From: Bacteroidota bacterium
Lineage (GTDB): Bacteria > Bacteroidota > Bacteroidia > Chitinophagales > Chitinophagaceae
NCBI GenBank assembly: GCA_028876495.1
Contig: JAGWRO010000040.1
Location: forward strand, 1 to 64,000
Direction: 5' to 3'
DNA length: 64,000 bases
Made by a program: the position numbers and the translations under genes. This document shows, piece after piece, positions 10,615 through 51,735 of the stretch (position 1 is the first letter of the stretch; each line of letters starts with the position of its first letter). The notes below the pieces were generated by a model, which was given only the letters and a program-made list of their open reading frames with translations, did not search any database and was not told the DNA's origin.

Positions 10615-10680
10615 CAAACATATATATTGGGTTCCGTTTTTACAAGCGATAGCAGTCATGAAAAAGACTGATCATTATCA
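10615..10680 (-). promoter_or_regulatory. Promoter with paired Crp/Fnr-like operators (small membrane ORF)
   Basis: The proximal site is CGATAGCAGTCA (10647-10658), one mismatch from TGA-N6-TCA. The distal site is TGATCATTATCA (10669-10680), a full match. Their centres are 22 bp apart. The -7 element TATGTTTG (10615-10622, minus strand) is centred 34 bp downstream of the proximal site. The only gene at a suitable distance is the 34-residue ORF on the minus strand. Confidence 0.6.
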
Positions 10681-10946
10681 GGAAACGGATATCGGGAAAT
10701 TTGAGAAGAAGATAACTTTCATTTTACAGATTTGTATGTTTTGTAGCGTCTTTTCATCCACTGGTAATTTTAAAAATTAGAATTCCTGATATTTGTTTGT
10801 CTGCTTATGCGATATTCAATGCAGTTGCAACTGAAACAATTAAACTTCATATTTGCCGGCTAAATATTTATTTCTCAATCCATTTTGGAAATGTTTAATT
10901 TTATTCTCCAAATAAATTTTATTTAAAAACTTAAACTTTTACAACA

Positions 10947-11501
10947 ATGAAAAAGATATTCTTTAAAGGGCTTGTATTAACATTGGTTGGTATGTTGATG
11001 ACTTCCTTGATATTTGCACAGCAGGATAAATCAAAAAGAGCAAGTCCTCCTGAAACCGCTACAGGCAATGTGTCCGGTTCAACTATCACTATTAATTATA
11101 GTAGTCCCGCTGTAAAAGGAAGAAAGATTTGGGGCGGCCTTGTTCCGTATGATAAAGTGTGGAGACTGGGCGCAAACGAAGCAACCACTTTTAAAACCAG
11201 CAAGGATATAATGGTAGAAGGAAAAAAACTGCCTGCAGGCACATATGCATTATATGCTTTGCCAACTCCAACTGAATGGACTTTTATTTTTAATTCAAAA
11301 CTGACACAAGCCGGTAAGCCGATTTGGGGTATAAAAGATGAAGAGGGAAATACTACTGATGATCCTAAAACAGAGGTATTGCGCATTATGGCCAAACCAA
11401 TGAAATCATCTGCTTTTAATGAAAGAATGAAATTTGTTGTTGGTGGTAGCGGATTTACTCTTGAGTGGGAAAACCTTAAAGTTCCGGTTTCTGTAAAATA
11501 A
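10947..11501 (+). CDS. DUF2911 secreted protein
   Basis: A signal peptide (about residues 1-26, ending IFAQQ) precedes a DUF2911 domain spanning most of the protein. The family marks visible are KRASPPETATG, INYSSPAVKGRKIWGGLVPY, VWRLGANEATTF and LPAGTYALYALP. The family is widespread in Bacteroidota and has no established function. It is probably a periplasmic or outer-membrane-associated beta protein. The gene is monocistronic and has its own terminator. Confidence 0.9.
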   Translation: MKKIFFKGLVLTLVGMLMTSLIFAQQDKSKRASPPETATGNVSGSTITINYSSPAVKGRKIWGGLVPYDKVWRLGANEATTFKTSKDIMVEGKKLPAGTYALYALPTPTEWTFIFNSKLTQAGKPIWGIKDEEGNTTDDPKTEVLRIMAKPMKSSAFNERMKFVVGGSGFTLEWENLKVPVSVK

Positions 11502-11820
11502 TTATATTTTATTTATTGAAAGCCTGGTTGGTAAAAGCCGGGCTTTTTTTGTGCCGTGTCTGGTAAAATATCATAACTGATTATTCTTCGTGTATTCATA
11601 TTTGTTATATATGGATTATAAAATAAAAATCCGGCTAATTTCTTTGTTTGCTGTAATGTTTTTATTTCTAAAAACCTTCCTCCTTATCGTTTGATAACCT
11701 TAGTTTAATTAATTGTTTATGAAAGAACACAGATAAAATTCAAATTAGATATATAGGATTTTTACAATTTCCTATTCTTTTATTTTTTGCACTTTCCAAT
11801 TATTTATCTTTATTGGATAA
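11502..11820. other. Intergenic stretch before the metalloprotease
   Basis: Besides the terminator at 11518-11550, the region is AT-rich and gene-free. TATCTTTA just before the protease start resembles a -7 element with its last base wrong, so no promoter is called. Confidence 0.4.
11518..11550 (+). terminator. Terminator of the DUF2911 gene
   Basis: AGCCTGG (11521-11527) pairs with CCGGGCT (11538-11544) with one G-U pair, extended by flanking A and T, and ends in a T run 17 bases after the stop. Confidence 0.82.
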
Positions 11821-14244
11821 ATGACTTTCATGAAAAAAATCTTTCTGCTTTTATTCTTTATTCCCATCCTGGCTGCTGCGCAAAAACTCCCTTCCATCGC
11901 CGACAAAACAAAAGGAATGGAAAAACACGAAGGTTTTTTGAATTTTTATATTGACCAGGAAAATGGAAAAATATATCTCGAAATAAATAAGCTGGATTCT
12001 GAAATGTTGTATCAAACCTCTTTGCCCGAAGGTGTCGGCTCAAATGATATTGGTCTCGACCGGGGATTAACAAACGAAACCAGGATTGTAAAATTTGTAA
12101 AAACAGGTAAAAAAGTGTTGATGATACAACCCAATTATAGATACCGGGCAGTTTCAAACGATGAGAATGAAAAGCGTGCCGTTGAAGAATCCTTTGCACA
12201 ATCTGCCTTGTGGGGATTTATTGCTGAAGCAGAAACTGATAATTCGGTTTTGGTTGATGCAACCGATTTTTTATTGAGCGATGCGCTGAACGTAGCGAAT
12301 ACTTTGCAAAATGATAAGCAGGGAAATTATTCAATTGATAAATCGCGAAGCGCAATTTACCTTCCACGAACCAAAAACTTTCCGTTGAATACGGAATTGG
12401 AAGCCACTATCACTTTTGTAAATTCCGCGCCCACTTCCGGCAATTTGGTTTCTTCAGTTACACCAACTCCGCAAGATATAACCGTGAGAATGCATCATTC
12501 GTTTGTGCAACTTCCTGATGATAATTATCAACCAAGAGTATGGGATCCGCGCTCAGGTTTTCAGGATATTTCTTTTCTTGATTATAGCACACCCGTTTCT
12601 GAACCGGTTGTAAAATATTATGCTACGCGCCACAGGTTGCAAAAGAAGGACCCAAATGCGGCGATGAGCGAACCGGTAAAACCCATTATTTATTATGTAG
12701 ATAATGGTGTGCCCGAACAGATTCGTAGCGCTTTGGTAGAAGGAGCCAGTTGGTGGAACCAGGCTTTTGAAGCCGCAGGTTATAAAAATGCATTCCAGGT
12801 AAAAATATTGCCTGATGGCGCCGACCCAATGGATATTCGCTATAACGTCATCAACTGGGTTCATCGATCTACACGTGGATGGAGTTATGGGAATTCTTTA
12901 GTTGATCCTCGAACAGGAGAAATTATTAAAGGAATCGTTTCGCTGGGTTCATTGCGTGTTCGCCAGGATTATTTAATCGCAACAGGTTTACTCGCGCCTT
13001 TCAAAGATGGCAAACCTGCCGATGATAAAATGCTTCAAATGTCATTGGCGCGTATCAGGCAACTGGCTGCTCACGAAGTGGGGCACACGCTTGGCCTTAT
13101 GCATAATTTTACCGGAAGCACTGTTAATCGTGCGAGTGTAATGGATTACCCAAGTCCTTTGGTAACATTGGATGCATCAGGAAATATTGATCTTTCAAAT
13201 GCTTACGATAATAAAATAGGAGCGTGGGATAGAGTGGCCATCAAATGGGGTTATTCAGAATTTCCTTCCGGAGAAAATGTAAAGGATTCGCTCAACACGA
13301 TTCTTACCGATGCTTTTAAAAGCGGCCTTCGATATTTAACGGATGAAGATGCACGGCCTGCAGGAAGTATTAGTCCTTATGCTCATTTGTGGGATAATGG
13401 AAGCAATGTAATTGACGGATTGAAACAGGTAATTAAAGTAAGGGCCAAAGCCTTGGAGCAGTTTGGAGAAAATGATATTCCTGAAGGAACTTCAATGGCA
13501 ATGCTGGAAGATGTGTTAGTGCCGGTTTATTTTTATCATCGCTATCAATTGGAAGCGGTTACCAAATTAATAGGAGGACTTGATTATACTTATGCGTTGC
13601 GGGGAGATGGACAATTTGTGACAAAACCTATTTCAAAAGAAGAGGAAATGAAAGCACTTGATGCAATTACCGATTGCCTCGATCCGAAGTTTTTAATGTT
13701 GCCTCCCAAAATTGTTGCACTCATTCCTCCTCGTCCGCAAGGATATATTCATTCGGATGAATTATTTCGAAAAAAAACCGGGGCTGCATTTGATGCATTG
13801 TCTCCTGCAGAAACCGCGGCTGACCTTCCTTTATCCTTTTTATTCAATGATCAAAGGCTTAGCCGCATGGAACAATATGCATTAAACGGAGGTTTAAGCG
13901 TAAATTCTATGTTAAACGATCTTGTTGAAAAAACATGGAAAGCTCCGCGAAGAACAGGAATGGAACAATTAATTCAACAACAAACCGAACAGGTTTTACT
14001 AACTTACCTGCTGGCATTAAGTGTAGATAATAAAGCTTCCTTCCAGGCGCGCGCTGATGGGATAAAAGTATTGAGTGATCTTAAAAACTGGATCGAATCT
14101 CAACAAAAGGTTTCAAAAGATGCTTCCTATACAGCACATTTGATGTTGGCGTTGGAAAGGATGAAAAAACCGGAAGATGCTAAACCTACCATGCATTCTG
14201 AGATTCCGCCCGGTTCACCAATTGGAACGGATTGGGAAGAATAA
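11821..14244 (+). CDS. Zinc-dependent metalloprotease (DUF5117/DUF5118 type)
   Basis: After a signal peptide (ILAAAQ) the protein has the N-terminal DUF5118/DUF5117 regions and then a metzincin-like catalytic domain. The zinc motif HEVGHTLGLMH begins at H418, with E419 as general base and a downstream methionine turn region (ASVMDYPSP). The length (807 residues) fits this Bacteroidota family of large secreted peptidases. The substrate is unknown. The start could also be the second ATG at 11830, which gives a more usual signal peptide (MKKIFLLLFF). The next gene begins 59 bases later on the same strand. Confidence 0.9.
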   Translation: MTFMKKIFLLLFFIPILAAAQKLPSIADKTKGMEKHEGFLNFYIDQENGKIYLEINKLDSEMLYQTSLPEGVGSNDIGLDRGLTNETRIVKFVKTGKKVLMIQPNYRYRAVSNDENEKRAVEESFAQSALWGFIAEAETDNSVLVDATDFLLSDALNVANTLQNDKQGNYSIDKSRSAIYLPRTKNFPLNTELEATITFVNSAPTSGNLVSSVTPTPQDITVRMHHSFVQLPDDNYQPRVWDPRSGFQDISFLDYSTPVSEPVVKYYATRHRLQKKDPNAAMSEPVKPIIYYVDNGVPEQIRSALVEGASWWNQAFEAAGYKNAFQVKILPDGADPMDIRYNVINWVHRSTRGWSYGNSLVDPRTGEIIKGIVSLGSLRVRQDYLIATGLLAPFKDGKPADDKMLQMSLARIRQLAAHEVGHTLGLMHNFTGSTVNRASVMDYPSPLVTLDASGNIDLSNAYDNKIGAWDRVAIKWGYSEFPSGENVKDSLNTILTDAFKSGLRYLTDEDARPAGSISPYAHLWDNGSNVIDGLKQVIKVRAKALEQFGENDIPEGTSMAMLEDVLVPVYFYHRYQLEAVTKLIGGLDYTYALRGDGQFVTKPISKEEEMKALDAITDCLDPKFLMLPPKIVALIPPRPQGYIHSDELFRKKTGAAFDALSPAETAADLPLSFLFNDQRLSRMEQYALNGGLSVNSMLNDLVEKTWKAPRRTGMEQLIQQQTEQVLLTYLLALSVDNKASFQARADGIKVLSDLKNWIESQQKVSKDASYTAHLMLALERMKKPEDAKPTMHSEIPPGSPIGTDWEE

Positions 14245-14303
14245 AATTATTAAAAAAAGTTGCTTTACTAAAAGCACAACATTTATAAATAAAATGACAT
14301 TGA

Positions 14304-14750: not shown

Positions 14751-14805
14751 AAAAAGAAATCAATTAATAAATAAACTATCCCAATCACTAAATTCTAAAT
14801 ACATA

Positions 14806-17229: not shown

Positions 17230-17303
17230 CAACAGAAGTTATAGTGAACCAACAAAAAAGGAAGGTTATTATTTTTTTTAAAAACTAAAAAGAAGTAATT
17301 GAT

Positions 17304-18467: not shown

Positions 18468-18512
18468 GAGATTAAATTATTTGAATAAAAGTTCATTTGC
18501 TAAAACAATATC

Positions 18513-27730: not shown

Positions 27731-28528
27731 TTATTTGTTGTTGAAATTCATATTGCACTCGATCTGCACATTATCAGAAATGCTGGTGCTGGTTACTCCA
27801 TAATCACGACAATTAAACTGGAAGGTGAGTTGCAAACCAAATACATCATATGCTGAAGCAGTACCGGCGTTAACGGTAGCTCTTCTTATGTATTTTAATT
27901 TTCCGACGATAGATTCGGTAAGAGGGGTAGCTAAAGGACCTTGCCATGTTAAATTAAGCGTTACAATATAATCTTCACTCAAAGGATCAAATTCTACTTT
28001 AGTGGTTTTAATTCTTGCAATGTTGGTTACAGTAAGGTTTTGAGTACCGGCCACAATAGGGGTAGTACCAAATGAAGTCAAAAGGCAGCCACCATCTCTT
28101 CCGGGTTCGCCGGTATTTGCCTGGTTCATTTGAACATATCCGCTAAAATAAGTTTTAGAAGGATCATTTTCATAAAATGCCCAGGAAGTATCCATTAAAG
28201 GTTGGCCGGAACCTACATAATTCTGCATTTCGGCATCAGTTACGTTGTGCATACCAAATTGGTTAAAACGGCCGGTAAGGAGTCCTGCTAATCCAACATA
28301 ATTAGTTTGCCATAATACGCTTGAGTGAGCTTTATCTAATTTCCATTGTGTGGTATCTCCTTTGGTCATTGTGCCGGGAAGAAGAACTGCGTTGCCGCGA
28401 TTAATTACTACAGCGTTAGATGCCGGTGCTGGTAAAACATCATTTTCGTGTGTACAACTGGTGATATACCCAAAGCCACTTAATAAAAGTAGCAGCGCCA
28501 GGAGGGTTTTGTTACTAAACAGTTTCAT
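27731..28528 (-). CDS. YceI-like domain lipoprotein
   Basis: A lipobox (YITSC, Cys25) is followed, from about residue 60, by a lipocalin-like domain with the YceI opening WKLDKAHSSVLWQTNYVGLA and LTGRFNQFGM. YceI proteins bind long-chain isoprenoids or amphiphilic molecules in the periplasm. The domain contains an unusual insertion around TGEPGRDGGCLLTSFG and a late cysteine (FNCRDYG). It is the first gene of a three-gene operon and lies behind a promoter with paired TGA-N6-TCA sites, which links the operon to the respiratory genes. Confidence 0.78.
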   Translation of the reverse strand: MKLFSNKTLLALLLLLSGFGYITSCTHENDVLPAPASNAVVINRGNAVLLPGTMTKGDTTQWKLDKAHSSVLWQTNYVGLAGLLTGRFNQFGMHNVTDAEMQNYVGSGQPLMDTSWAFYENDPSKTYFSGYVQMNQANTGEPGRDGGCLLTSFGTTPIVAGTQNLTVTNIARIKTTKVEFDPLSEDYIVTLNLTWQGPLATPLTESIVGKLKYIRRATVNAGTASAYDVFGLQLTFQFNCRDYGVTSTSISDNVQIECNMNFNNK

Positions 28529-28563: not shown

Positions 28564-28628
28564 CAAAGCTATACCGGGTATTATTACAATTTCATGACTT
28601 AAGTCACTGCAGAATATGATTCAGATCA
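28564..28628 (-). promoter_or_regulatory. Promoter with paired Crp/Fnr-like operators (YceI-like operon)
   Basis: The proximal site is the perfect palindrome TGACTTAAGTCA (28595-28606); the distal site is TGATTCAGATCA (28617-28628). Their centres are 22 bp apart. The -7 box TAGCTTTG (minus strand, 28564-28571) is centred 33 bp below the proximal centre, so activation from about -41.5 is expected. Confidence 0.75.
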
Positions 28629-31588: not shown

Positions 31589-31591
31589 GGC

Positions 31592-32827: not shown

Positions 32828-32892
32828 TAAAACTAAAGGCTAATGATTTTTTAATTTATGAGCGATGCCAGTTGTCAATATGATTGTAATCA
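32828..32892 (-). promoter_or_regulatory. Promoter with paired Crp/Fnr-like operators (Fe-S/NrfD operon)
   Basis: The distal site TGATTGTAATCA (32881-32892) matches TGA-N6-TCA and is a near-perfect palindrome. The proximal site TGAGCGATGCCA (32859-32870) has one deviating base. Centres are 22 bp apart. TAGTTTTA (minus, 32828-32835) is a -7 element with its last base off, centred exactly 33 bp below the proximal centre. Confidence 0.65.
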
Positions 32893-32945: not shown

Positions 32946-33350
32946 TTACTTCAGTGTTTTTATGAAGTTAACCAGGTTCCACCTGTCTTCATTGTCAGGT
33001 AGTTTCTTTTTGAAGGAAGGCATATCATCCCTGCCTTCAGATATCCTGTAAAATAATTCTCCATCAGTCTGGTTCTGCACATCCGGTTTTGTAAAATCTC
33101 CCGGATCGGTTTTCAAGGTAGATGCCTTGGTTCCATCGCCCAGCCCTTTTGCTCCATGGCAAGATTTACAATGGGTGTTCCATAATGATTTTCCTTCTTT
33201 AATTGATTCTGCATTACTAGCTACAGGGTTTTTTTGAGCTTTGGCTGCTGCAGGTACAGGCCATGGTTTTTTTTGATCCACTGTTTTTAATGTAAAGCTG
33301 GCCACAATAAATCCTGTGATCAGCATTGCGATGATACCATTTGTTTTCAT
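32946..33350 (-). CDS. Monohaem cytochrome c
   Basis: The start is set at the ATG at 33350, which leads straight into a signal or anchor helix (GIIAMLITGFIVASFTL). The upstream in-frame ATG at 33404 would leave almost no leader after the predicted promoter. The haem c site is CKSCHG, and the axial Met is likely in DDMPSFKK. The protein is a small class I cytochrome with an Ala/Pro/Lys linker. It could carry electrons from the NrfD module to the cbb3 oxidase, both encoded nearby and both behind the same operator type. Confidence 0.88.
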   Translation of the reverse strand: MKTNGIIAMLITGFIVASFTLKTVDQKKPWPVPAAAKAQKNPVASNAESIKEGKSLWNTHCKSCHGAKGLGDGTKASTLKTDPGDFTKPDVQNQTDGELFYRISEGRDDMPSFKKKLPDNEDRWNLVNFIKTLK

Positions 33351-33416
33351 TTTTTTATTTTTTGTGATGGTTAAAAAGTTTTTTTTAAACAGCTTTATGT
33401 TCAATTAATTCTGGTG

Positions 33417-33479
33417 CAAATTATTTAATTTTAATGATAATTTTATGACAATTGTCAAAAGAGAAAATGATTTGAATCA
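33417..33479 (-). promoter_or_regulatory. Promoter with paired Crp/Fnr-like operators (cytochrome c)
   Basis: The proximal site is the perfect palindrome TGACAATTGTCA (33446-33457); the distal site is TGATTTGAATCA (33468-33479), within the perfect inverted repeat ATGATT/AATCAT. Centres are 22 bp apart. The -7 element is weaker here (ATAATTTG on the minus strand, 33417-33424), 31 bp from the proximal centre. Confidence 0.7.
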
Positions 33480-33517: not shown

Positions 33518-34351
33518 TTATTCGTTTACTGCATCAGAGATGGGTAATACTAATAAAGGAACAGTAGTTTGATAGCTCATTTCTTTGGTGTGAATTATAC
33601 CAAATACTCTTTTAAAAAATGAATGTCTATGAGCAACCATTGCTAATATATCGGAAGGATTTTTTTCTAAAAATTCATGAATCCCTTTTTCAACACTTTT
33701 GTTCTCAACTGTATTAAATTGATGGTCTAATTTCACGAAGGAAAGGTTGGCTTCCATTTTACCTATCGCGTTTTCAACCGACATCGCTTCTTCATTTTTT
33801 TGCACATTCACTATCTGTATTGAGGAATTGTATTTTTCGGCTAATTCTTCGAGAATAGAATAGTCTTGTTTTTCTATGTCAAATTCACTGGCAAACGTGA
33901 TCTTCCGGATCGGCTTGAAACTATTTTTTTCCGGAATTACAAAAACAGGGAGATTTGATTTTTGCATAACCGAAATGGTGGTACTGCCAAATATTGAATT
34001 GCTTTTTCCTTTTCCTTTCATTCCCATTACGATAAGATCAGCATGTTTTGCCTTTGCCAATTCCCTTGTAATTTCTGTAGGAGAACCTTCTCTTATAAAA
34101 GCGTCAACCTTTACATCAAATTTTTTAGAAATCTTTTCAATCTCTTTTTTCAAAAGTTCCTTATCTCTTTCCAGTAATTCTGCTTTGGTCATCATGTAAG
34201 CCGATGCCGAAGTGTCTTCAATTACACTCGGTGGAACAATCACATTTACTAAAATTAATTTTACCTGGAAATCCTGCGCTAAAGCGGCAGCATATTCAGT
34301 TGCATTATGTGAAGCTTTTGAAAAATCTGTTGGAACTAGAATGTTTTTCAT
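33518..34351 (-). CDS. Universal stress protein with two Usp domains
   Basis: Two UspA-type alpha/beta domains are in tandem. The first begins MKNILVPTDFSKASHNATEY and holds the ATP-binding pattern GMKGKGKSNSIFGSTTISVM; the second (from about residue 140) is more divergent and lacks a full glycine motif. The ATG at 34351 is chosen because the family starts there; the in-frame ATG at 34378 would lie within 10 bases of the predicted transcript start. Usp proteins often accompany low-oxygen and energy stress in this phylum. Its promoter has the same paired sites as the oxidase genes. Confidence 0.88.
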   Translation of the reverse strand: MKNILVPTDFSKASHNATEYAAALAQDFQVKLILVNVIVPPSVIEDTSASAYMMTKAELLERDKELLKKEIEKISKKFDVKVDAFIREGSPTEITRELAKAKHADLIVMGMKGKGKSNSIFGSTTISVMQKSNLPVFVIPEKNSFKPIRKITFASEFDIEKQDYSILEELAEKYNSSIQIVNVQKNEEAMSVENAIGKMEANLSFVKLDHQFNTVENKSVEKGIHEFLEKNPSDILAMVAHRHSFFKRVFGIIHTKEMSYQTTVPLLVLPISDAVNE

Positions 34352-34390
34352 CCTGAAACTTTTTAAAATTTGAGCCACAATTGACTATCC

Positions 34391-34455
34391 TAAAAGTATT
34401 TTATATGGGATAATCTATTATTGATGTGTATCACATCAGTTGCTGATAGTTGTCA
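34391..34455 (-). promoter_or_regulatory. Promoter with paired Crp/Fnr-like operators (Usp gene)
   Basis: The proximal site TGATGTGTATCA (34422-34433) lies in the larger inverted repeat TGATGTG/CACATCA. The distal site is TGATAGTTGTCA (34444-34455). Centres are 22 bp apart. TACTTTTA (minus, 34391-34398), a -7 element with one deviating base, is centred 33 bp below the proximal centre. Confidence 0.72.
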
Positions 34456-38418: not shown

Positions 38419-40578
38419 TTATTGTTTGATTTTACTAATGTCTGTTCCCAATCTTTGGAGATAAGAGATGAGCGCGATCACTTCTTTATTTGGGGAAATT
38501 CGGATGCTGTCGCTTTGCAAATTATCTGCAATTCCTTGTGCCTGTTTCATCAGGTCGGCATTGGCTACTTTATCATATCCTTTCGGATAAGGAACGCCCA
38601 ATGTTTGCATTGCTCTTATTTTAGCGGGCGTTGTAGAAGTATCCAGGTCTTTTTTAAGCATAAATGCATAGGAAGGCATCAGAGATCCTTCACTCATGGA
38701 AGAAGGTTCGCGCAAATGGCGGAAATGCCATCCGTTTGATTTTTTCAGATTTCCTGCTCCTTCACGGGCCAGGTCGGGACCGGTTCGTTTGCTTCCCCAT
38801 TGGAACGGATGATCATATACAAACTCGCCGGCTTTTGAATATTCACCATATCTTTCTGTTTCAGAACGGAAAGGCCTTATCATTTGTGAATGACACAGAT
38901 AACAACCTTCTCTTACGTAAATGTCGCGTCCCTGTAACTCAAGCGGTGTGTATGGTTTTACGCTGCTAATGGTTGGTACATTAGACTTAACCAAAAAGGT
39001 AGGTATGATTTCAACAGCTCCGCCAATTAAAATTACAATAAGGCTGAACACCAGCATTTGCACTGGTTTTCTTTCTAAAATCCTGTGCCAGTGTTCATGT
39101 GTAGCAGATTTTTGCAATTTTTGAAGAGGTGCAGCTTCTGCGGCTTCATTGGCAATTAACTTACCTGATCTTACTGTTTTGTAAAGGTTGTAAACCATCA
39201 AAAACGCTCCTATCAGATACAATGTACCTCCGAATGACCTTACTGCATAAAAAGGTTTCAGATAAGTAACTGTTTCAAGAAAAGAATATTTTAGCTGGCC
39301 GCTTGCAGTAAATTGTTTCCACATACTGCTTTGCGTAAATCCTGCCCAATACAGTGGGACTACATAAAATACAATTCCGAGCGTAGCAAGCCAAAAGTGA
39401 TTGGCAGCTAATTTTTTTGAGTACAATTGAGTTCCAAAAATTCTTGGGATTAACCAATACAAGATTCCGAAGGTCAGCATTCCGTTCCAACCCAAAGCGC
39501 CTACGTGTACATGAGCAATAATCCAGTCGGTATAATGGCTGATGGCGCTTACGCTTTTTAGTGAAAGCATAGGACCTTCAAAAGTTGCCATACCATAAGC
39601 GGTAACGGCAACCACCATAAATTTTAAAATAACATCGTCCCTCACCCTGTCCCATGCACCTCTTAGTGTCAGCAATCCATTGATCATTCCACCCCAGCTC
39701 GGGAAAATGAGCATTAATGAAAATACAGTTCCGAGCGATTGAGCCCAGTTGGGTAAAGCTGTATATAACAAATGGTGCGGCCCTGCCCAGATATATAAAA
39801 ATATGAGTGCCCAGAAATGGATAATGGAAAGCCGGTAAGAATAAATCGGTCGATTAGCAGCCTTAGGTAGAAAATAATACATTAATCCGAGATAAGGCGT
39901 GGTTAAGAAGAACGCCACTGCATTGTGGCCATACCACCATTGAACCAGGGCATCCTGTACGCCTGCATACCATGAGTAACTTTTAAATAAAGTAACCGGC
40001 AGTTCGGCAGAATTTACGAGATGCAATACAGCTACTGTTACAAATGTGGCAATGTAAAACCAAATAGCCACGTACAAATGTCTTTCTCTCCTTTTGATGA
40101 TGGTTGCAAACATGTTCCAGCCAAAAATTACCCAGATAATAGTAATGGCAATATCAATTGGCCATTCCAGTTCCGCATATTCTTTACTGGTAGTAATGCC
40201 AAGTGGCAGTGTGATTGCTGCTGCCAAAATGATCAATTGCCATCCCCAGAAATGAATTTTACTTAATTTGTCGCTGTACATCCTGGCTTTGCACAGGCGT
40301 TGCAGCGAATAATAAACGCCCATAAAAATTCCATTTCCAACAAAAGCAAATATTACCGCATTGGTATGCAAAGGCCGTAAACGCCCAAATGAACCATATT
40401 GCATAATATTTAATGAAGGAAACACTAATTCGAGTGATACGTAAAGACCAACGAGCATTCCTACTGCTCCCCAGAAAACTGTTGCATAAGCAAAATTTCG
40501 AACAGTCTTATTATCATAATAGAATTTTTCCACGGTTGCTTTGGGCGTGTTGTCTAAATAATTTTCTTCAAACTGCAT
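38419..40578 (-). CDS. ccoN: cbb3 oxidase fused subunits I and II (CcoNO)
   Basis: This is the catalytic core of the high-affinity cbb3 oxidase. Residues 1-470 are CcoN, a 12-helix haem-copper subunit with HTNAVIFAFVGNGIFMGVYY, WWYGHNAVAFFLTTPYLGLM (CuB histidine and the special tyrosine region) and DWIIAHVHVGALGWNGML. From about residue 510 a CcoO domain begins with an anchor helix and a haem c site GCYLCHSQMIRPFRSETERY. The 719-residue fusion of N and O is a recognised form in Bacteroidota. It overlaps ccoS by 11 bases. Confidence 0.96.
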   Translation of the reverse strand: MQFEENYLDNTPKATVEKFYYDNKTVRNFAYATVFWGAVGMLVGLYVSLELVFPSLNIMQYGSFGRLRPLHTNAVIFAFVGNGIFMGVYYSLQRLCKARMYSDKLSKIHFWGWQLIILAAAITLPLGITTSKEYAELEWPIDIAITIIWVIFGWNMFATIIKRRERHLYVAIWFYIATFVTVAVLHLVNSAELPVTLFKSYSWYAGVQDALVQWWYGHNAVAFFLTTPYLGLMYYFLPKAANRPIYSYRLSIIHFWALIFLYIWAGPHHLLYTALPNWAQSLGTVFSLMLIFPSWGGMINGLLTLRGAWDRVRDDVILKFMVVAVTAYGMATFEGPMLSLKSVSAISHYTDWIIAHVHVGALGWNGMLTFGILYWLIPRIFGTQLYSKKLAANHFWLATLGIVFYVVPLYWAGFTQSSMWKQFTASGQLKYSFLETVTYLKPFYAVRSFGGTLYLIGAFLMVYNLYKTVRSGKLIANEAAEAAPLQKLQKSATHEHWHRILERKPVQMLVFSLIVILIGGAVEIIPTFLVKSNVPTISSVKPYTPLELQGRDIYVREGCYLCHSQMIRPFRSETERYGEYSKAGEFVYDHPFQWGSKRTGPDLAREGAGNLKKSNGWHFRHLREPSSMSEGSLMPSYAFMLKKDLDTSTTPAKIRAMQTLGVPYPKGYDKVANADLMKQAQGIADNLQSDSIRISPNKEVIALISYLQRLGTDISKIKQ

Positions 40579-40790: not shown

Positions 40791-40855
40791 CAAAAATAGA
40801 TTCCTTATTTACCCAGAAAGATGAGGCTCATCAAGCCGTGATATGATTTACCTCA
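40791..40855 (-). promoter_or_regulatory. Promoter with paired Crp/Fnr-like operators (cbb3 operon)
   Basis: Both sites match TGA-N6-TCA in full: TGAGGCTCATCA (40822-40833) and TGATTTACCTCA (40844-40855), centres 22 bp apart. TATTTTTG (minus, 40791-40798) is a consensus -7 element exactly 33 bp below the proximal centre. The pair occupies the 109-base gap after ccoI, so the cbb3 operon has its own promoter. Confidence 0.8.
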
Positions 40856-40874: not shown

Positions 40875-43265
40875 TTAAAGTTTTTTTCTTTTACCGATAA
40901 ATGAAGAAAGCAGGCTGGCCAGGCCTACAATACTAATACTGCTTGCAGGCATAAGCACTGCTGCCACAACCGGATCTAACCTGCCCTGAACGGCAAATGA
41001 TAATCCTACAACATTGTAAAGGATCGATAATGCAAAACCCGCACCGACTACTTTTTTACCTGCTTTTGCAAAGTCCATAAACTGCGCAGTCTTTTGAACA
41101 GCATCTCCATCAATAATAGCATCACAGGCAGGGGTAAACCGGGCAGCATTATTACTTACGGCAATTCCTGCATCACTTTGCATTAAAGCTCCGGCATCAT
41201 TGAGGCCGTCGCCGATCATCAAAACTTTTTTCCCTTCAGCTTGCAATCTTTTGATGTAGTCTAATTTTTTTTGGGGAGAGGTATTAAAATTGAGTGTGGT
41301 AGTTGAAGTGAAAATTTGCTCAAGCCTCTCTTTTTCTGCGGCGTTATCGCCTGAAACCACATGCAGTTCATAGTTTGCCTTCTTCAAGTCATTCACCAGG
41401 TCTTTAATTCCCGGCCTGTATTTATTTTTTATTTCAAAAAAACCTTTGGTAGCATGGTCAATCATCACGTATACGCGCGAGCCATTATTGGCAGAAACAT
41501 GCATTTTCTCATCAAGGAAATTTGCAGCGCCAACTTTTATGGGGACCTGATTAATGATGGCTGCTATTCCTTTTCCTGCATGTTCTTCAAAAGAGTTTAT
41601 TTCAGGCAACTCCTGTTCGATTTCATTTGTAACGAACGAGGAATTTATCAATTTACTTAAGGTGTGTGAGGATTGTGCCGTTACTTTTTTTATAAATGAT
41701 TTATCAGTGATTGAAAGGTCGATGCCTGTGTAATGCAGATCACCCAAATTGGTTTCAGTGAGGGTCCCGGTCTTGTCAAACACAATGGTGTCAATTCCTG
41801 CAAGTGTTTCAATTACGTTTGCATTCTTTAAATAAAGTTGGTTCTTCCCGAAAATGCGTACCATATTTCCAAAAGTGAAAGTGGCAGAAAGCAGAAGAGA
41901 ACAAGGACAGGCAACAATTAAAACCGCTGTAACCACCGGCCATATTTTAGACGGATCATGAAAATACCAGAAAGCCGCTGCGCAAAACGCAACGAGGAAA
42001 AGCGCACCTGTGAAATAGCGGCTCCACGGATGTATAAAAGAAGTGGCCGCATTTTTTGTTTGCCCGAAAATTTCGTTATTCCATAATTGTGTGATATAGC
42101 TTTGCGAAGGTTTTTTTATCACCTGCAATTGTAAGGAAGTTCCTATCTGTTTGCCGCCGGCATATATTATTTCTCCCTTATTTATCGGCACAGGATTGTT
42201 TTCGCCGCTCACAAAACTATAATCGATATAGGCAGAACCCTCAGTAAGTAAGGAATCTGCCGGAACCATCTCTTCATTTTTGATAATGATATAATCGCCC
42301 ATTTCGAGTTTGGTTGCCGGAATATTTTCTTCCTTACCTTTTTTTAAAACAGTAACTCCCAGGGGAAAATAAGAATGGTAATCACGATCAAATGTGAGCG
42401 CATCATACGTTTTATTCTGAAACCATCGACCGATAAGAATAAAGAAAATAATTCCTGTTCCGGAGTCAAGATATCCTGCGCCTGTTCCGCTAATGATCTC
42501 ATAATAACTTCTAACAAACGTAATAACAATTGCAAGGGCAAGAGGTACATCAATATTGATATTTTTTTGTTGTAAACCTTTAAATGCTGATTTAAAAATG
42601 GCACTCGCACTATAAAATAAAACGGGTAATGATAAACCAAAAATGAGCCAGGAAAAAGTTTGCTTTAGCCCCTGCTCATCAATGGCTCCGTGCGAAAAAT
42701 ATTCCGGGAAACTGAGCATCATTATATTACTGAAGCAAAAACCGGCAATACCAATCTTATAAAGTTGTTTCCTGTCGAATTTTATTCCTTTTTTTTCTTT
42801 TGAATCGTTCAAACTGATAAATGGCTCATAGCCGATAAACGCAAGTAATTCCACTACTTTCCGCAGTGAAATCATTTTTTCATTAAAACTGATAAAGACT
42901 TCCTTTCGCTGAAAGTTGGTTTGTGAACTGATGATTCCTTCATTAATCCGGTGAAGATTTTCTAACAAAAAAATGCATGAGGAACAATGCATTTGAGGAA
43001 GAGAGAAAGTGACATTCGTTTGCGTGTCACTTCTGAAACTTATCAATTTTTCTATCACGGATTCATCTTCGAGATAAGCAAATCGTTCACTGGCAAATTT
43101 GCCTTTTACTTTTATTCCCGGGTTCTTATCAAAATTATAATAGCTGCAGAGGTTGTTTTCGTTCAACAATAAATACACCTGCCGACATCCCTGGCAACAG
43201 AAATTTTTATCGCCTTCAATTATTAACGTGATACAATCATCGCCACAATGGTAGCAGTTGGTCAT
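40875..43265 (-). CDS. ccoI: Copper-translocating P1B-type ATPase CcoI
   Basis: The ATG at 43265 (MTNCYHCGDDC) is chosen because the upstream ATG at 43313 lies inside the predicted -7 box. The chain has an N-terminal Cys-rich metal region (CYHCGDDC, FCCQGCRQVY), an HMA-like domain (MHCSSCIFLL), eight membrane helices with the transport motif CPCSLLL, the phosphorylation site DKTGTLTE and the hinge GDGLNDAGAL. CcoI moves copper across the inner membrane for cbb3 oxidase. The Cys-rich N terminus is typical of oxidase-linked ATPases. It is next to the cbb3 operon but has its own promoter. Confidence 0.95.
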   Translation of the reverse strand: MTNCYHCGDDCITLIIEGDKNFCCQGCRQVYLLLNENNLCSYYNFDKNPGIKVKGKFASERFAYLEDESVIEKLISFRSDTQTNVTFSLPQMHCSSCIFLLENLHRINEGIISSQTNFQRKEVFISFNEKMISLRKVVELLAFIGYEPFISLNDSKEKKGIKFDRKQLYKIGIAGFCFSNIMMLSFPEYFSHGAIDEQGLKQTFSWLIFGLSLPVLFYSASAIFKSAFKGLQQKNINIDVPLALAIVITFVRSYYEIISGTGAGYLDSGTGIIFFILIGRWFQNKTYDALTFDRDYHSYFPLGVTVLKKGKEENIPATKLEMGDYIIIKNEEMVPADSLLTEGSAYIDYSFVSGENNPVPINKGEIIYAGGKQIGTSLQLQVIKKPSQSYITQLWNNEIFGQTKNAATSFIHPWSRYFTGALFLVAFCAAAFWYFHDPSKIWPVVTAVLIVACPCSLLLSATFTFGNMVRIFGKNQLYLKNANVIETLAGIDTIVFDKTGTLTETNLGDLHYTGIDLSITDKSFIKKVTAQSSHTLSKLINSSFVTNEIEQELPEINSFEEHAGKGIAAIINQVPIKVGAANFLDEKMHVSANNGSRVYVMIDHATKGFFEIKNKYRPGIKDLVNDLKKANYELHVVSGDNAAEKERLEQIFTSTTTLNFNTSPQKKLDYIKRLQAEGKKVLMIGDGLNDAGALMQSDAGIAVSNNAARFTPACDAIIDGDAVQKTAQFMDFAKAGKKVVGAGFALSILYNVVGLSFAVQGRLDPVVAAVLMPASSISIVGLASLLSSFIGKRKKL

Positions 43266-43310: not shown

Positions 43311-43375
43311 CAAAAATACCAGTGATATAAAACGAATAATATGAGCAAGATCAGTCTGGTAGATGATATTGGTTG
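43311..43375 (-). promoter_or_regulatory. Promoter with paired Crp/Fnr-like operators (ccoI)
   Basis: The proximal site TGAGCAAGATCA (43342-43353) matches fully; the distal TGATATTGGTTG (43364-43375) keeps only the left half. Centres are 22 bp apart. TATTTTTG (minus, 43311-43318) is exactly 33 bp below the proximal centre. The divergent DUF302 gene starts 170 bases away and lacks a matching -7 box. Confidence 0.7.
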
Positions 43376-43545
43376 GTAGTACACCATTATCGCCTGGTTA
43401 ACTTTGATAAACAGGCTTTTATAGTAAACAAACAATTTTTAAAGATTCTTATTTAAAGATAAAGGTTAAGGCTCTGTAACATAAGTAGCGGAATAAAAGA
43501 TGGGCCTTTAGCAATTTTGCATTAGTAATTAAATAAACAATAAGT

Positions 43546-43932
43546 ATGAGTTATTATTTTTCAAAAACCATAAATAAAGATTTTGATGCAGCCATAGCGC
43601 ATGTAACAGAAGAACTTAAAAAAGAAGGATTTGGCGTGCTTACACAAATTGATGTGCAGGATACTTTAAAGAAGAAACTGGATGTGGATTTTAAGAAATA
43701 CCGCATTCTTGGCGCCTGCAATCCAAATTTTGCTTACCAGGCTTTGCAATTAGAGGATAAGATCGGTTCAATGCTACCTTGCAATATTGTGGTTGAAGAG
43801 AACCTGGATGGTACAGTGGAAGTCAGCGCTGTAGATCCTGTTATTTCAATGTCAGGTGTAAAAAATGATTCTCTTGGCGCCGTTGCTAACCAGGTGCGTG
43901 AAAAACTACAGAGAGTGATAAACAATCTTTGA
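43546..43932 (+). CDS. DUF302 domain protein
   Basis: The 128-residue protein matches the DUF302 pattern throughout: YYFSKTINKDFDAAIAHVTE, GFGVLTQIDVQDTLKKKLDV, YRILGACNPNFAYQALQLED and LPCNIVVEENLDGTVEVSAV. Members are small dimeric proteins of unknown activity, often near redox, sulfur or heavy-metal genes. The cysteines in GACNP and LPCN are conserved in the family. It is the first of four short co-directional genes and is divergent from ccoI. Confidence 0.9.
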   Translation: MSYYFSKTINKDFDAAIAHVTEELKKEGFGVLTQIDVQDTLKKKLDVDFKKYRILGACNPNFAYQALQLEDKIGSMLPCNIVVEENLDGTVEVSAVDPVISMSGVKNDSLGAVANQVREKLQRVINNL

Positions 43933-43959
43933 TCTTAGTTCATTTAAAATATAAACAAA

Positions 43960-44172: not shown

Positions 44173-44190
44173 TAAAATTTAAATAAAATC

Positions 44191-44652: not shown

Positions 44653-44679
44653 ATTTCATCTGTTCTAAAAGTACTATAT

Positions 44680-46748: not shown

Positions 46749-46861
46749 GGTAGATGTGCAGCGGCGATTGTTGTTATAGTATTAATTAAATTTTTTCGGT
46801 AAGCCGCCAAAAATCACATTCTTATTATTCTTAATTGCCGATTTATATTTCCGCTAAAATA

Positions 46862-48082
46862 TTAATGCACCAATACAAGATTTTTTTCAACATAGCTGCT
46901 CAAAACGTTGATACATTCGCAACCTTTGCTCACAGAATGTTTTAGTTGAATGGCAAGTGAAGCTACAGTTTTGTGAATCTTTTCTTTATCCTCTTCAATT
47001 TCAAAAGCTTCATTTATTTCAAGTAATTGTGATTTTACTTTTTGTATCAAAGGACTGTTGGCTTGTTGACGATGCCAGTCTTCCAGGTCGTTTAAGGTAT
47101 CATTAATTATTTTTAAAGCTTTAGGTACTTCAGCTTCTCTTGCAGAAATCGTTTCGTCAAGAATCAAAGAAACTTCATCCACATCCATCAGTGTGATTCC
47201 GTGTATTTGTTTTATAGCCGGATCTGCATTTTGTGGTGATGAAAGATCAAGTACCAGCCTTGGTTTTTCAGAAACGAAATAGGAGGGAAGTACAATGTGA
47301 TTTTCAGAAGAAGAACTTATCATTATAACGTCAGCTTCATTACAAGCTGAAGCTAAATTTTTGTAGGCAACAAAACCTTCATCATATTTCTCAGCAAGCA
47401 GGTAAGCTTTTTCATCTGTTCTGTTACAAAATGAAATACTGGCGCCGGGCAAATAATCCTTTAGATTTTTTGCAATCTGATTTCCAAATTTTCCGGTTCC
47501 TACCAACAGTACTTTTTTATTTTTTAAATCTTTTATTTTTTCTTTGATGATTTGAATTGCAGCATAAGAAACTGAAACACTCCCGGAACTGAGTTTGGTT
47601 TTTGTTTTGATTTCTTTTGACGCCTGTAAAGCAAAATTGATTACCCGTTCCATAAAAGGGTTAAGACCGCCGCTTTCTTTTGCAAGCCTGGCAGAATGCT
47701 TTAACTGCGATAAAATTTCATAATCACCGATAATCTGGGAATCCAAACCTGAAGCAACATTTAATAAATGTTCTACCGCAGCACGGCCGTTATAAACATA
47801 ACCTTGTGATTCAAAATCTTTTCTGTCGCCGTTGGTATAACTGCAAAGCAGTTCTGTCAGTTCCTTTGGATCGTTACAAATTCCATAAAGTTCAGTCCGG
47901 TTGCAGGTTGAAAGAACAAGACATCCCTGTACCTTTTTAGAAATAGCTTCCTGTATCAGTTTAACTGACTGCTCTGGTGAAATAGAAAATTTTCCCCGGA
48001 TGCTTATATCGCTTTTCCTGTAATTGATTCCAACTATGCTAAAATTTTGTAAGGAGCTATTAAAATCGTTTGTGAAATTCAT
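46862..48082 (-). CDS. hemA: Glutamyl-tRNA reductase
   Basis: HemA makes glutamate-1-semialdehyde from glutamyl-tRNA, the first committed step of C5-route haem synthesis. The catalytic cysteine is in LSTCNRTELYGI; GLDSQIIGDYEILSQLK and VLLVGTGKFGNQIAKNL (NADPH Rossmann motif) follow; the C-terminal dimerisation helix is present. The 406-residue length is normal. The minus-strand box TATTTTTG (48094-48101) is a good -7 element. Haem made here is needed by the oxidase and cytochromes in this window. Confidence 0.94.
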   Translation of the reverse strand: MNFTNDFNSSLQNFSIVGINYRKSDISIRGKFSISPEQSVKLIQEAISKKVQGCLVLSTCNRTELYGICNDPKELTELLCSYTNGDRKDFESQGYVYNGRAAVEHLLNVASGLDSQIIGDYEILSQLKHSARLAKESGGLNPFMERVINFALQASKEIKTKTKLSSGSVSVSYAAIQIIKEKIKDLKNKKVLLVGTGKFGNQIAKNLKDYLPGASISFCNRTDEKAYLLAEKYDEGFVAYKNLASACNEADVIMISSSSENHIVLPSYFVSEKPRLVLDLSSPQNADPAIKQIHGITLMDVDEVSLILDETISAREAEVPKALKIINDTLNDLEDWHRQQANSPLIQKVKSQLLEINEAFEIEEDKEKIHKTVASLAIQLKHSVSKGCECINVLSSYVEKNLVLVH

Positions 48083-48181
48083 TCTCTTTAATTCAAAAAT
48101 ATTTTCAAAGTGGTTTAGAAACTGGTTTCATATAAATAAATACGAATAAGCAAATTTCATCGCTATCGGTTTCGAAAAAAA

Positions 48182-48245
48182 GAATAACAGTCATTTCCAA
48201 ATATGAGCCTCCTCATGTTTTTATCCTTTATTGGAAGTACATTTA
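48182..48245 (+). promoter_or_regulatory. Promoter with operator pair, one site degenerate (P-type ATPase)
   Basis: The proximal site TGAGCCTCCTCA (48204-48215) is a full match; 22 bp upstream, GAATAACAGTCA (48182-48193) keeps only the right half. TACATTTA (48238-48245), a -7 element with one deviating base, is 32 bp below the proximal centre. The weakest of the nine pairs. Confidence 0.45.
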
Positions 48246-48287
48246 TTTGCTGATTAGATTTTTTTAAAATTTTAAACTGAGCAATGT

Positions 48288-50789
48288 ATGTCCAAGCTTC
48301 CCATTGATATAAAGGGACTTTCAGATGAGCAGGTGTTGCTTTCCGGAAAGCAACACGGGAAAAATGAATTGGATCAATCTTCTAAAAGTCCTTTTATAGC
48401 AGCCTTGCTTGACACACTTAAGGAGCCGATGCTCATTTTGTTATTTGCAGCGGGCATTCTTTATTTAATCTCCGGCGACAAAGGAGATGCCATATTTATG
48501 CTTTCGGCTATTGTATTGGTTTCTGCTATTTCTCTTTACCAGGATTCAAGAAGTCGCCATGCGCTTGCGGCTTTGAAGCAACTTTCTCAACCGCAAACTA
48601 AAGTGATAAGAAACGGGATTATCTCTTCTATCTCCAGCAAAGAAGTGGTAGTAGATGATGCGTTTATTGTTGAAGAAGGAAGTATGATAACTGCCGATGC
48701 AGAAATTATTTATTCAAATGATTTTACCGTAAACGAATCGATTCTTACAGGTGAATCTTTGGCAGTAGAAAAGTTTGTAAATGAAGATAATAAAATCTTC
48801 AGCGGCACTTTGGTATCCAGCGGAATGGCTATCGCACGGGTAACCAAAGTGGGGAATGCCACTGAATTGGGAAGAATAGGCAGATCATTGAAGGAGATTA
48901 AAGAAGAAGAAACACCGCTGCAACTGCAAATAAGAAATTTTGTAAAAAAGATGGCCATCATCGGGCTAATCGTTTTTCTGATAGTATGGGTTTTTAATTT
49001 TTTTCAATCCCGCAGTTTGGTGAATAGCTTATTAAAGGCATTAACCTTGGCCATGTCTGTTTTGCCTGAAGAAATTCCGGTTGCCTTTACCACTTTTATG
49101 GCGTTGGGTGCCTGGCGGCTGATGAAAATGGGAATCATAGTGAAACAAACAAAAACAGTAGAAACACTCGGAAGTGCCACGGTAATTTGTGTCGACAAAA
49201 CCGGCACTATCACCCAAAATAAAATGCAACTTGCCGGTTTGTATGTATTTGAAAAGGACCATTTATACATGGATTCGCAGGAAGATAAGGAAGCTGTGTT
49301 GGATTTAATTACTACGGCTATGTGGGCAAGTGAGCCATTACCATTTGACCCAATGGAAAAGGCTTTGCATGAAGCTTATAAGGGAATAGTTTCCACTGAT
49401 GAGCGCCCGGGTTATAAAATGGTACATGAATATCCGTTGGCAGGCCGTCCGCCTATGATGACTCATCTATTTGAAAACAAAAACGGAAACCGGGTAATTG
49501 CTGCCAAAGGGGCTGCTGAAAAAGTTTTGTCTGTATGTGAATTGACAGAAGTTGAAAAAGCAAAAATTGTTAGCCAGGAGCAAGCTTTGTCAGCACAAGG
49601 TTACCGCGTTTTAGGAGTAGCACATGCTTCTTTTTCGGGAAATGATTTCCCAAAAGAACAGGAGAATTTTAATTTTCAATTTATCGGGCTGGTTTCTTTT
49701 TATGATCCTCCAAAAAAGAATATGGCTGCGGTGTTTGAAAGTTTTTATAAAGCAGGAATTAGTGTAAAAATTATTACAGGCGATAATAAAGCTACCACCG
49801 AAACGATTGCGCAGCAAGTGGGGTTCAGGGGGGCAGAAGATGCGTTGGACGGAGCAGAATTGATGAATTTTTCTGACCAGGAACTGCAGGAAAATGTAAT
49901 GCGAATCAATATTTTTACAAGAATGTTTCCTGAGGCAAAACTGAAAATAATAACTGCTTTAAAAAAAAGCCAACAAATTGTAGCAATGACCGGTGATGGT
50001 GTTAATGATGCGCCCGCACTTAAAGCAGCCAACATCGGAATTGCAATGGGCGAAAAAGGTTCGGATATTGCAAAAAGCGCTTCATCACTTGTATTAGCCG
50101 ATGATGACCTTGGTAAAATGGTGGACGCAATTGCCATGGGAAGAAGAATTTACAGTAACCTGAAAAAAGCGATTCAATATATAATTTCCATTCATATTCC
50201 GATCATTTTGATGGTGCTGTTGCCGCTGGTTTTGGGTTGGGTGTATCCGGCAGTTTTTACGCCGGTTCATGTTATTTTTCTTGAGCTGATTATGGGGCCC
50301 ACCTGTTCAATCATTTATGAAAATGAGCCAATAGAAGCCAACCTTATGCAACAGAAGCCACGTTCATTTACCAATACTTTTCTTTCATGGAAAGAGTTGC
50401 AGCTAAGTATATTGCAAGGACTTGTTATTACTGCCGGAACGTTAGGTATTTATCAATTTGCTGTTTCAAAAGGATATGATGAAGAGCAGACCAGGACAAT
50501 GGTTTTCACCACATTGGTTATTGCCAACATTTTTCTTTCTTTGGTAAACCGTTCTTTTTATTACTCATTGTTTACAACGCTTCGCTATAAAAATTATTTA
50601 TTAATACTCATCATTTTTGTGACCATCCTGATGCTCGCTTTGATGATCTCCATTCCGGGAATTATTTCTTTTTTCAAGTTTGAAAAATTACTTTTTAACC
50701 AATTGCTGGTTTGCATTTTAGTTGGCTTTGTTTCTGTGATCTGGATCGAAGTTTATAAATATTTCAAACGCCTCAAAGCTGCTAGTTGA
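48288..50789 (+). CDS. P2-type cation-transporting ATPase
   Basis: The 833-residue pump has the usual order: N-terminal cation ATPase domain (GLSDEQVLLSGKQHGKNELD), actuator domain (TVNESILTGESLAVEKF, equivalent to TGES), M4 with VLPEEIPVAFTTFMALGAWR, the phosphorylation site VCVDKTGTITQNKM, the hinge MTGDGVNDAPALKAANIGIA, and six C-terminal helices. The layout is closest to calcium-type (PMCA/SERCA-like) bacterial ATPases; PEEIP in place of PEGLP leaves the ion uncertain. The operator pair upstream suggests low-oxygen induction. A patatin gene follows after 34 bases. Confidence 0.88.
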   Translation: MSKLPIDIKGLSDEQVLLSGKQHGKNELDQSSKSPFIAALLDTLKEPMLILLFAAGILYLISGDKGDAIFMLSAIVLVSAISLYQDSRSRHALAALKQLSQPQTKVIRNGIISSISSKEVVVDDAFIVEEGSMITADAEIIYSNDFTVNESILTGESLAVEKFVNEDNKIFSGTLVSSGMAIARVTKVGNATELGRIGRSLKEIKEEETPLQLQIRNFVKKMAIIGLIVFLIVWVFNFFQSRSLVNSLLKALTLAMSVLPEEIPVAFTTFMALGAWRLMKMGIIVKQTKTVETLGSATVICVDKTGTITQNKMQLAGLYVFEKDHLYMDSQEDKEAVLDLITTAMWASEPLPFDPMEKALHEAYKGIVSTDERPGYKMVHEYPLAGRPPMMTHLFENKNGNRVIAAKGAAEKVLSVCELTEVEKAKIVSQEQALSAQGYRVLGVAHASFSGNDFPKEQENFNFQFIGLVSFYDPPKKNMAAVFESFYKAGISVKIITGDNKATTETIAQQVGFRGAEDALDGAELMNFSDQELQENVMRINIFTRMFPEAKLKIITALKKSQQIVAMTGDGVNDAPALKAANIGIAMGEKGSDIAKSASSLVLADDDLGKMVDAIAMGRRIYSNLKKAIQYIISIHIPIILMVLLPLVLGWVYPAVFTPVHVIFLELIMGPTCSIIYENEPIEANLMQQKPRSFTNTFLSWKELQLSILQGLVITAGTLGIYQFAVSKGYDEEQTRTMVFTTLVIANIFLSLVNRSFYYSLFTTLRYKNYLLILIIFVTILMLALMISIPGIISFFKFEKLLFNQLLVCILVGFVSVIWIEVYKYFKRLKAAS

Positions 50790-50823
50790 GAAAATGAAAG
50801 AGTCTTTTTAATTTTATAAAAAA

Positions 50824-51597: not shown

Positions 51598-51608
51598 TAC
51601 TCTTACGT

Positions 51609-51632
51609 AAAAAACAGGAATCCCGTTTTTTT
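51609..51632 (+). terminator. Terminator after the patatin gene
   Basis: AAAAAAC pairs with GTTTTTT around GG/CC and a 3-base loop, with one mismatch inside, ending in T. It lies 11 bases past the stop. Confidence 0.5.
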
Positions 51633-51670
51633 GTTCATTTACTGTTCTCACATCTTCTTTGAAGCGCGAA

Positions 51671-51735
51671 TGACACAAATCATAGTAGCAAATGAGTAAT
51701 CTCATTTATCTTTATATTTAGCCAGACTACTTTTG
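51671..51735 (+). promoter_or_regulatory. Promoter with paired Crp/Fnr-like operators (hemN)
   Basis: The distal site TGACACAAATCA (51671-51682) and the proximal site TGAGTAATCTCA (51693-51704) are both full TGA-N6-TCA matches, 22 bp centre to centre. TACTTTTG (51728-51735) is a consensus -7 element exactly 33 bp below the proximal centre. This is one of the clearest of the nine, on the opposite strand from most others. Confidence 0.82.

Follow-up and report, generated by a model that had tools for sequence, protein, structure and literature searches.

In a stretch of 64,000 nucleotides (nt) from a Bacteroidota bacterium (contig JAGWRO010000040.1, positions 1 to 64,000, hereafter the window), nine promoters carry two copies of the inverted repeat TGA-N6-TCA with centres 22 base pairs (bp) apart. 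This observation is real, and the same paired design is found many times over in related genomes. The explanation that best accounts for the whole, to which we give a probability of roughly 0.75, is that the pairs are composite tandem operators for a subfamily of Crp/Fnr regulators, here called REC-Crp, in which a receiver domain precedes the Crp/Fnr domains, and that REC-Crp and a PAS histidine kinase would together activate these promoters at low oxygen. The evidence consists of operator geometry, conservation, co-occurrence and gene clustering with REC-Crp, and protein domains.

A first-pass annotation, made from the letters of the window, had placed the pairs at 10647, 28595, 32859, 33446, 34422, 40822, 43342, 48182 and 51671, and a pattern search of the window found all nine there, each with the 22-bp spacing. 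Five of them (28595, 33446, 34422, 40822 and 51671) are perfect at both sites, as had been claimed; the imperfect ones also agree with their earlier description, with one mismatch each at 10647 and 32859 and two each at 43342 and 48182. A -7 box of the TAnnTTTG type, which is the Bacteroidota type, accompanies the pairs. The distances previously given for it were confirmed: in six cases the box lies 33 bp from the proximal site, centre to centre, which corresponds to 23 nt past the pair, while the distance is 34 bp at 10647, 32 bp on the plus side of 48182 and about 31-32 bp at 33446, where the box is poor. At 43342 and 48182 a box-like sequence is present on the opposite side as well, a feature absent from the earlier description. 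TGA-N6-TCA is the core of Crp/Fnr operators, and the sites have this inverted-repeat geometry. The window contains 37 single sites, as compared to 20.7 expected.

The genome that contains the window measures 4.70 Mb in 99 contigs, with the window at C26:1-64000. The pattern TGA-N6-TCA-N10-TGA-N6-TCA has 22 perfect places in this genome, five of which are in the window. The reversed pattern has none genome-wide, which is a weak control because the reversed motif is itself rarer (127 vs. 354 single sites in 0.857 Mb). These 0.857 Mb are 18% of the genome, selected to cover all 22 perfect pairs. In this subset, the 354 single sites form 22 pairs at 22 bp and at most one pair at any other distance up to 150 bp (expected 0.15), and five control motifs gave 0 or 1 pair at 22 bp. 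A search of the whole genome with a variable gap of 0-30 nt, in which the first site was TGAT-N5-TCA and which is not biased to 22 bp, located 15 places with the 22-bp spacing; no other distance between 12 and 42 bp was seen at more than one place, save 42 bp, which was seen at two. It had been asked whether the pairs might be equally common inside genes; in fact, within the stretches that were read, not one of the 22 perfect pairs is fully contained in an open reading frame (ORF) of at least 150 amino acids, and a few touch a possible ORF start.

The same spacing dominates in other organisms. The named-loci sample (L124-L203, 1.31 Mb) comprises the best 80 of at least 586 confirmed relatives obtained from a protein scan with REC-Crp; its labels are mostly Bacteroidetes/Bacteroidota, Chitinophagaceae or Chitinophagales, and Chitinophaga filiformis and Ferruginibacter paludis are among its species. 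The sample has 92 pairs with the 22-bp spacing, the other distances having 0.80 pairs each on average, and 56 of the 80 loci have at least one pair. Perfect triple arrays with 22-bp steps were found at G205:C5:324937-324992 and G033:C2:2518584-2518639. The box, at one mismatch or fewer, stands exactly 23 nt past the pair on 87 of the 178 sides of 89 named pairs (background 1.8 per offset) and on 14 of the 44 sides of the 22 pairs of the genome under study (background 0.46). Aligning 88 promoters gave the profile TGAY-N4-RTCA-N10-TGAY-N4-RTCA-N23-TAnnTTTG, in which the other positions show little preference and no TTTG is present near -33. The two sites have an identical core and different flanking preferences. 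Single-mismatch operators in the named loci have the mismatch in the proximal site in 22 of 26 cases; on this count we dropped the view that tolerance to mismatches is greatest in the outermost half-site, a few cases in the genome under study being different.

A promoter model was built as a weight matrix from the perfect pairs with box of other species. The training pairs had a box, so the box among the model matches is not independent evidence, whereas the count at the 23-nt offset is. When applied to the window, the model matched exactly the nine places already noted and no other even down to a score of 10; the best scores at these places were 21-38, as compared to at most 16.2 in five shuffled copies of the window. 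In the 0.857 Mb, 44 rows at 41 places scored 20 or more, a number that is not a genome-wide density because the stretches were picked to hold all 22 pairs. The possibility that the pairs are as frequent in shuffled DNA was answered in the negative, since one Markov-shuffled copy of the 0.857 Mb gave no match at 16 or above, vs. 57 real rows. Orthologous promoters keep the pair as well. The fused CcoN-CcoO subunit of cbb3 oxidase (CcoNO), used as the target for comparison across genomes, was found in 17 of the 39 genomes searched (the one under study included), and 14 of these 17 cco loci have an upstream operator at the 23-nt spacing. The three misses are G018, which is cut by a contig end, G046, which has no REC-Crp match, and G048.

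Targets were assigned as the largest ORF starting no more than 450 nt past the box, a rule that makes some assignments uncertain. In the window, they are CcoNO, FixP, FixG, FixH, DsbD_2, cytochrome c, iron-sulfur (Fe-S)/NrfD proteins, a P-type metal ATPase, a universal stress protein, YceI, glutamyl-tRNA reductase, a cation ATPase, DUF302 and a radical SAM protein. Outside the window, 30 proteins were scanned, 5 of which have no family. The families include cytochrome c (with a further cytochrome c from a separate scan), pyruvate:ferredoxin oxidoreductase, phosphate acetyltransferase, phosphoenolpyruvate (PEP)-utilising dikinase, pyridine nucleotide oxidoreductases, Hsp70, Hsp20, FtsH, KdpA, OmpA, BON, DUF892 and a cyclase with TPR repeats. 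The operator geometry and the targets support the view, already expressed in the first-pass annotation, that these are tandem Crp/Fnr-type operators over a gene content resembling FixK/FNR regulons. Since nine promoters have fixed double sites, the respiratory and stress gene set of the window follows one rigid promoter design.

The candidate regulators are encoded outside the window. The genome contains nine HTH_Crp_2 matches, six over the curated cut-off. Two proteins, on contigs C86 and C89, consist of a receiver domain, a cyclic nucleotide (cNMP)-binding domain and HTH_Crp_2; in both paralogues the cNMP-binding and HTH_Crp_2 domains score over the Pfam cut-offs, which places them in the Crp/Fnr family. 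A PAS histidine kinase gene adjoins each, so that both have the receiver and adjacent kinase of a two-component system, as do most of the named relatives. The N-terminal Cys cluster of FNR was looked for in both proteins and is not present; they start with the receiver domain. As judged by eye, the REC-Crp sequence presumably lacks the contacts that E. coli Crp makes to cyclic AMP through Glu and Arg-Ser.

REC-Crp and the pairs occur together. The phylum table includes 296 genomes, 295 without the one under study, and a second set includes 58 relatives. In the phylum table, the mean number of perfect pairs is 3.55 in the 42 genomes with REC-Crp and 0.54 in the 253 without, and some REC-Crp may have been overlooked in the latter because 7 candidates per genome were scored, as compared to up to 35 in the set of relatives. 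At least four pairs are present in 16/42 genomes with REC-Crp vs. 3/253 without (Fisher p ~1e-12; the genomes share kinship, and p-values are only a guide). Among the 58 relatives, the means are 6.16 in 38 genomes with REC-Crp and 0.90 in 20 without. For these counts, G117, in which only the receiver part matched, was placed among the genomes without REC-Crp; G008, where the protein is in two fragments, and G012, where it is truncated at residue 301, were placed among those with it. One genome, G043, has REC-Crp as its sole HTH_Crp_2 match and contains 4 perfect pairs.

The genes themselves lie close to the operator. An operator with a score of at least 20 is present in 22 of the 30 REC-Crp loci numbered L094-L123; adding nine further REC-Crp loci with shorter flank (6/9; L019, L066, L070, L076, L081, L082, L090, L091 and L093) brings this to 28 of 39. 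It was found in only 1 of 33 other Crp/Fnr loci, which are about 3.2 kb long as compared to about 4 kb for the REC-Crp loci. The tallies leave out L020 and L213 (no ORF), L208 (a 90-amino acid fragment, which has operators) and L223 (which overlaps L209). A third group of six loci, defined by tree order (L079, L083, L205, L206, L207 and L209), encodes proteins that lack a receiver domain, have a Cys cluster at the N terminus and carry a recognition helix similar to that of REC-Crp; the operator is present in 4 of these 6 loci, or in 4 of 7 if L068 is counted. The group occurs in G053, G205, G074, G191 and G326, which contain 3 to 7 pairs and no REC-Crp match. The same operator is therefore likely to receive a second input in some lineages. 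On these sequence data, the operators are likely read by a response regulator of the REC-cNMP-HTH_Crp type and not by a plain FixK/FNR protein. In the named loci, pairs are densest in the interval 1-2 kb upstream of REC-Crp (20 pairs, 0.29 per kb). An upstream kinase gene would start roughly there, and this position suggests self-control.

In 76 of the 80 named loci, a kinase homologue is encoded no more than 600 bp away from REC-Crp. When the PAS domain of the C86 kinase was compared to solved structures, 13 of the 14 matches were FixL or DosP/yddU/heme-PAS proteins, the top match being a multi-sensor kinase. Of the 66 PAS domains of adjacent kinases that were compared, 63 retain a His at the position that aligns with the heme-ligand His of FixL. 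Oxygen sensing by the PAS kinase next to REC-Crp is thus plausible.

The mechanism that we propose is the following. Two dimers would bind next to each other on the same face of the helix, at a distance of 22 bp, or about two helical turns. The proximal one would be centred about 33 bp before the midpoint of the -7 box (about -40), where it would replace the -33 element and occupy a class II position; the distal dimer, 22 bp further upstream (about -62), would occupy a class I position. REC-Crp, of which this genome has two paralogues, would be switched through phosphorylation by the adjacent PAS histidine kinase. Low oxygen would then turn on the cbb3 oxidase and its assembly genes, the metal ATPase, heme synthesis, cytochromes, fermentative enzymes and stress proteins. 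DNA binding, the simultaneous presence of two dimers, their cooperativity, activation and the nature of the signal are predictions of this scheme. At Crp/FNR promoters of E. coli, class II sites lie near -41.5, class I sites near -61.5 and class III sites near -93.5 (PMC5957442). The operators described here share with that system the TGA..TCA half-site core; their proximal site would be at the class II position and their distal site near the class I position. In E. coli, however, these positions define separate promoter classes, whereas here both would carry sites, at a fixed 22-bp spacing, with a Bacteroidota-type -7 box and no -33 box.

Four other explanations were weighed. The first overlaps the preferred one: each operator may bind two different regulators, either the two REC-Crp paralogues or REC-Crp and an FNR-like protein, as an AND gate. 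The presence of two paralogues in this genome agrees with it, as do the different flanking preferences of the two sites and the excess of single mismatches in the proximal one, but many relatives have one REC-Crp match and several pairs, and both sites share the same core. We consider an AND gate rather unlikely. According to the second, another Crp/Fnr protein of this genome, namely the Cys-rich L017 or L018, is the main reader of the operator, and REC-Crp merely shares its genomic company. Besides the two REC-Crp, there are indeed seven other HTH_Crp_2 matches, four of them over the cut-off (L017, L018, L020 and L021), while those of L023 and L024 look by eye like GntR and ArsR proteins. Moreover, G053, G205 and G326 have an FNR-like Cys-cluster protein beside the operator. 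Those proteins, however, nearly share the recognition helix of REC-Crp. The helices of L017 and L018 differ from it, a scan of the loci of these two yielded no operator, and G043 has no HTH_Crp_2 match besides REC-Crp. A main reader of this kind is improbable. The third explanation, that the second site mainly serves a divergent promoter, with each dimer acting on its own side, draws on the 16 of 90 named pairs that have a box on both sides (22-24 nt) and on 43342 and 48182 in the window. Yet 61 of these pairs have the box on a single side and 13 have no box, and both sites are still kept, which makes it very improbable. Chance, or copying of a repeated element, has a practically negligible probability: the lack of enrichment of loosely matching pairs in the window, reported below, speaks for it, but it was rejected on the spacing counts, the cco conservation, the box offset and the shuffled sequences, and because the positions between the fixed bases are near background, so that the pairs are not copies of one repeat.

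Several observations weigh against the explanation by tandem operators read by REC-Crp. In the window, the paired pattern at three mismatches or fewer is not enriched (39 vs. 37.8 expected), so that degenerate pairs need the extra evidence of a -7 box. In the named loci, spacings of 21, 23 and 24 bp are mildly enriched (7, 5 and 4 vs. about 0.8), which means that 22 bp is dominant and not absolute. At least one perfect pair is present in 90 of the 253 genomes without REC-Crp, and 11 of the 42 phylum genomes with REC-Crp, ten of them in family f24, have no perfect pair. G042 keeps a degenerate cco operator without a REC-Crp match; conversely, G048 has REC-Crp and no operator scoring 12 or more within 700 bp upstream of cco. 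L068, which is Cys-rich, has no receiver domain, carries a similar helix and branches elsewhere, has no operator in its locus. For some targets, namely MlaE, phosphoribosyl pyrophosphate (PRPP) synthase, inositol phosphatase, a LolA-like protein and peptidase M50, no link to low oxygen is evident. Finally, at a position where Lys or Arg is present in 63 of 66 relatives, the C86 kinase carries Thr, which makes its oxygen sensing uncertain.

Family f24 shows how the double site may depend on lineage. Five other f24 genomes with REC-Crp (G082, G143, G209, G229 and G277) contain 1 to 4 perfect pairs. The notion that REC-Crp genomes without a perfect pair lack the operator was rejected, since G005, G014 and G316 have one-mismatch operators beside REC-Crp. 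The 11 REC-Crp loci of the ten f24 genomes contain 6 perfect single sites with an exact box at +23, and none of these 6 is preceded, at 22 bp, by another site (mismatches affect 3 to 6 of 6 positions there). In the named loci, 50 of 62 such box-linked sites have a second site at two mismatches or fewer (random about 4.75%), a contrast that is partly built in because the ten f24 genomes were chosen for having no perfect pair. Because the position is the same for the single sites of f24, the double site seems to have arisen, depending on lineage, by addition to an ordinary class II Crp/Fnr promoter. In other words, the single site looks like the basic form and the distal site like a later addition, a polarity that we infer without a tree.

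The FixL-FixJ-FixK cascade of rhizobia consists of a heme-PAS kinase, a response regulator and a Crp/Fnr protein with its box, and its targets are cbb3 and FixGH. The system described here resembles it in the heme-PAS-like kinase, the response regulator, the Crp/Fnr box and the cbb3/FixGH targets; because a single protein here carries both the receiver and the Crp/Fnr domains, the steps of FixJ and FixK would be combined into one. We tentatively suggest, at somewhat less than even odds, that these promoters represent a distinct class in part of the Bacteroidota, in which two Crp/Fnr dimers, held rigidly at 22 bp from each other and at 23 nt from the -7 box, work as one unit for REC-Crp, a merged FixL-FixJ-FixK. 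The distal dimer would have been added to a single-site class II promoter, of a kind that still stands beside REC-Crp in some genomes of a related family. As for FNR, some relatives without REC-Crp have Cys-rich Crp/Fnr proteins with a similar recognition helix beside the operator, whereas the two likely regulators of this genome contain a receiver domain and lack the Cys cluster at the N terminus. In E. coli, the redox response regulator ArcA binds as adjacent dimers at 11- or 22-bp spacing in a varied architecture (PMC3798270). The likeness lies in a redox response regulator with adjacent dimers at helical-turn spacing, 22 bp included; ArcA, however, is of the OmpR/PhoB type and uses direct repeats in varied architecture, while here inverted repeats have a fixed geometry. 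ArcA was the closest described arrangement in our literature search, and the present case would be a variant of Crp/Fnr promoter control. No tandem Crp/Fnr rule or REC-Crp regulator in Bacteroidota was found in that search, which covered mostly open papers and is weak evidence of absence. The promoter grammar is sharp enough to predict the regulon from sequence in many poorly studied Bacteroidota, it points to a candidate regulator and a candidate sensor through which they may respond to low oxygen, and it offers a natural test case for a single activator site turning into a fixed double site.

The arrangement of the nine promoters in the window is as follows. The cbb3 cluster is faced by the perfect operator at 40822..40855 (minus strand, box 40791-40798); CcoNO (COX1 + FixO, 38419..40578, minus) is followed by FixP, FixG, FixH and DsbD_2. 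On the same strand, the perfect operator at 34422..34455 (box 34391-34398) faces the universal stress protein gene 33518-34378, the perfect one at 33446..33479 (poor box at about 33416-33423) faces the cytochrome c gene 32946-33404, and the perfect one at 28595..28628 (box 28564-28571) faces a YceI-domain gene, 27731-28528. The operator at 32859..32892 (minus, one mismatch, box 32828-32835) precedes a 76-amino acid ORF, which begins 26 nt past the box, and then the Fe-S/NrfD genes 30269-32560. On the plus strand, the perfect operator at 51671..51704 (box 51728-51735) faces the radical SAM gene 51771-53165, previously called hemN.

Two operators are two-sided. That at 43342..43375 (two mismatches; boxes 43311-43318 minus and 43399-43406 plus) lies between the P-type metal ATPase gene 40875-43265 (minus), the copper pump of the earlier description, and the DUF302 gene 43546-43932 (plus). 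The listed TTG start of the ATPase at 43313 falls inside the box of this promoter, and the ATG at 43265 is the likelier start. The degenerate operator at 48182..48215 (two mismatches, box-like on both sides) is flanked by the cation ATPase gene 48288-50789 (plus) and the glutamyl-tRNA reductase gene 46862-48082 (minus). The operator at 10647..10680 (minus, one mismatch) has its box at 10615-10622, with a 24-nt spacer, and the first frame past it is a hydrophobic ORF of 34 amino acids at 10480-10584 (minus), which may be a small membrane protein; by tblastn it gave only weak matches in the fetched loci (best E 0.02). A transfer-messenger RNA (tmRNA) gene, with the tag GNTQLAMAA, is present at 56114-56484 on the minus strand of the window.

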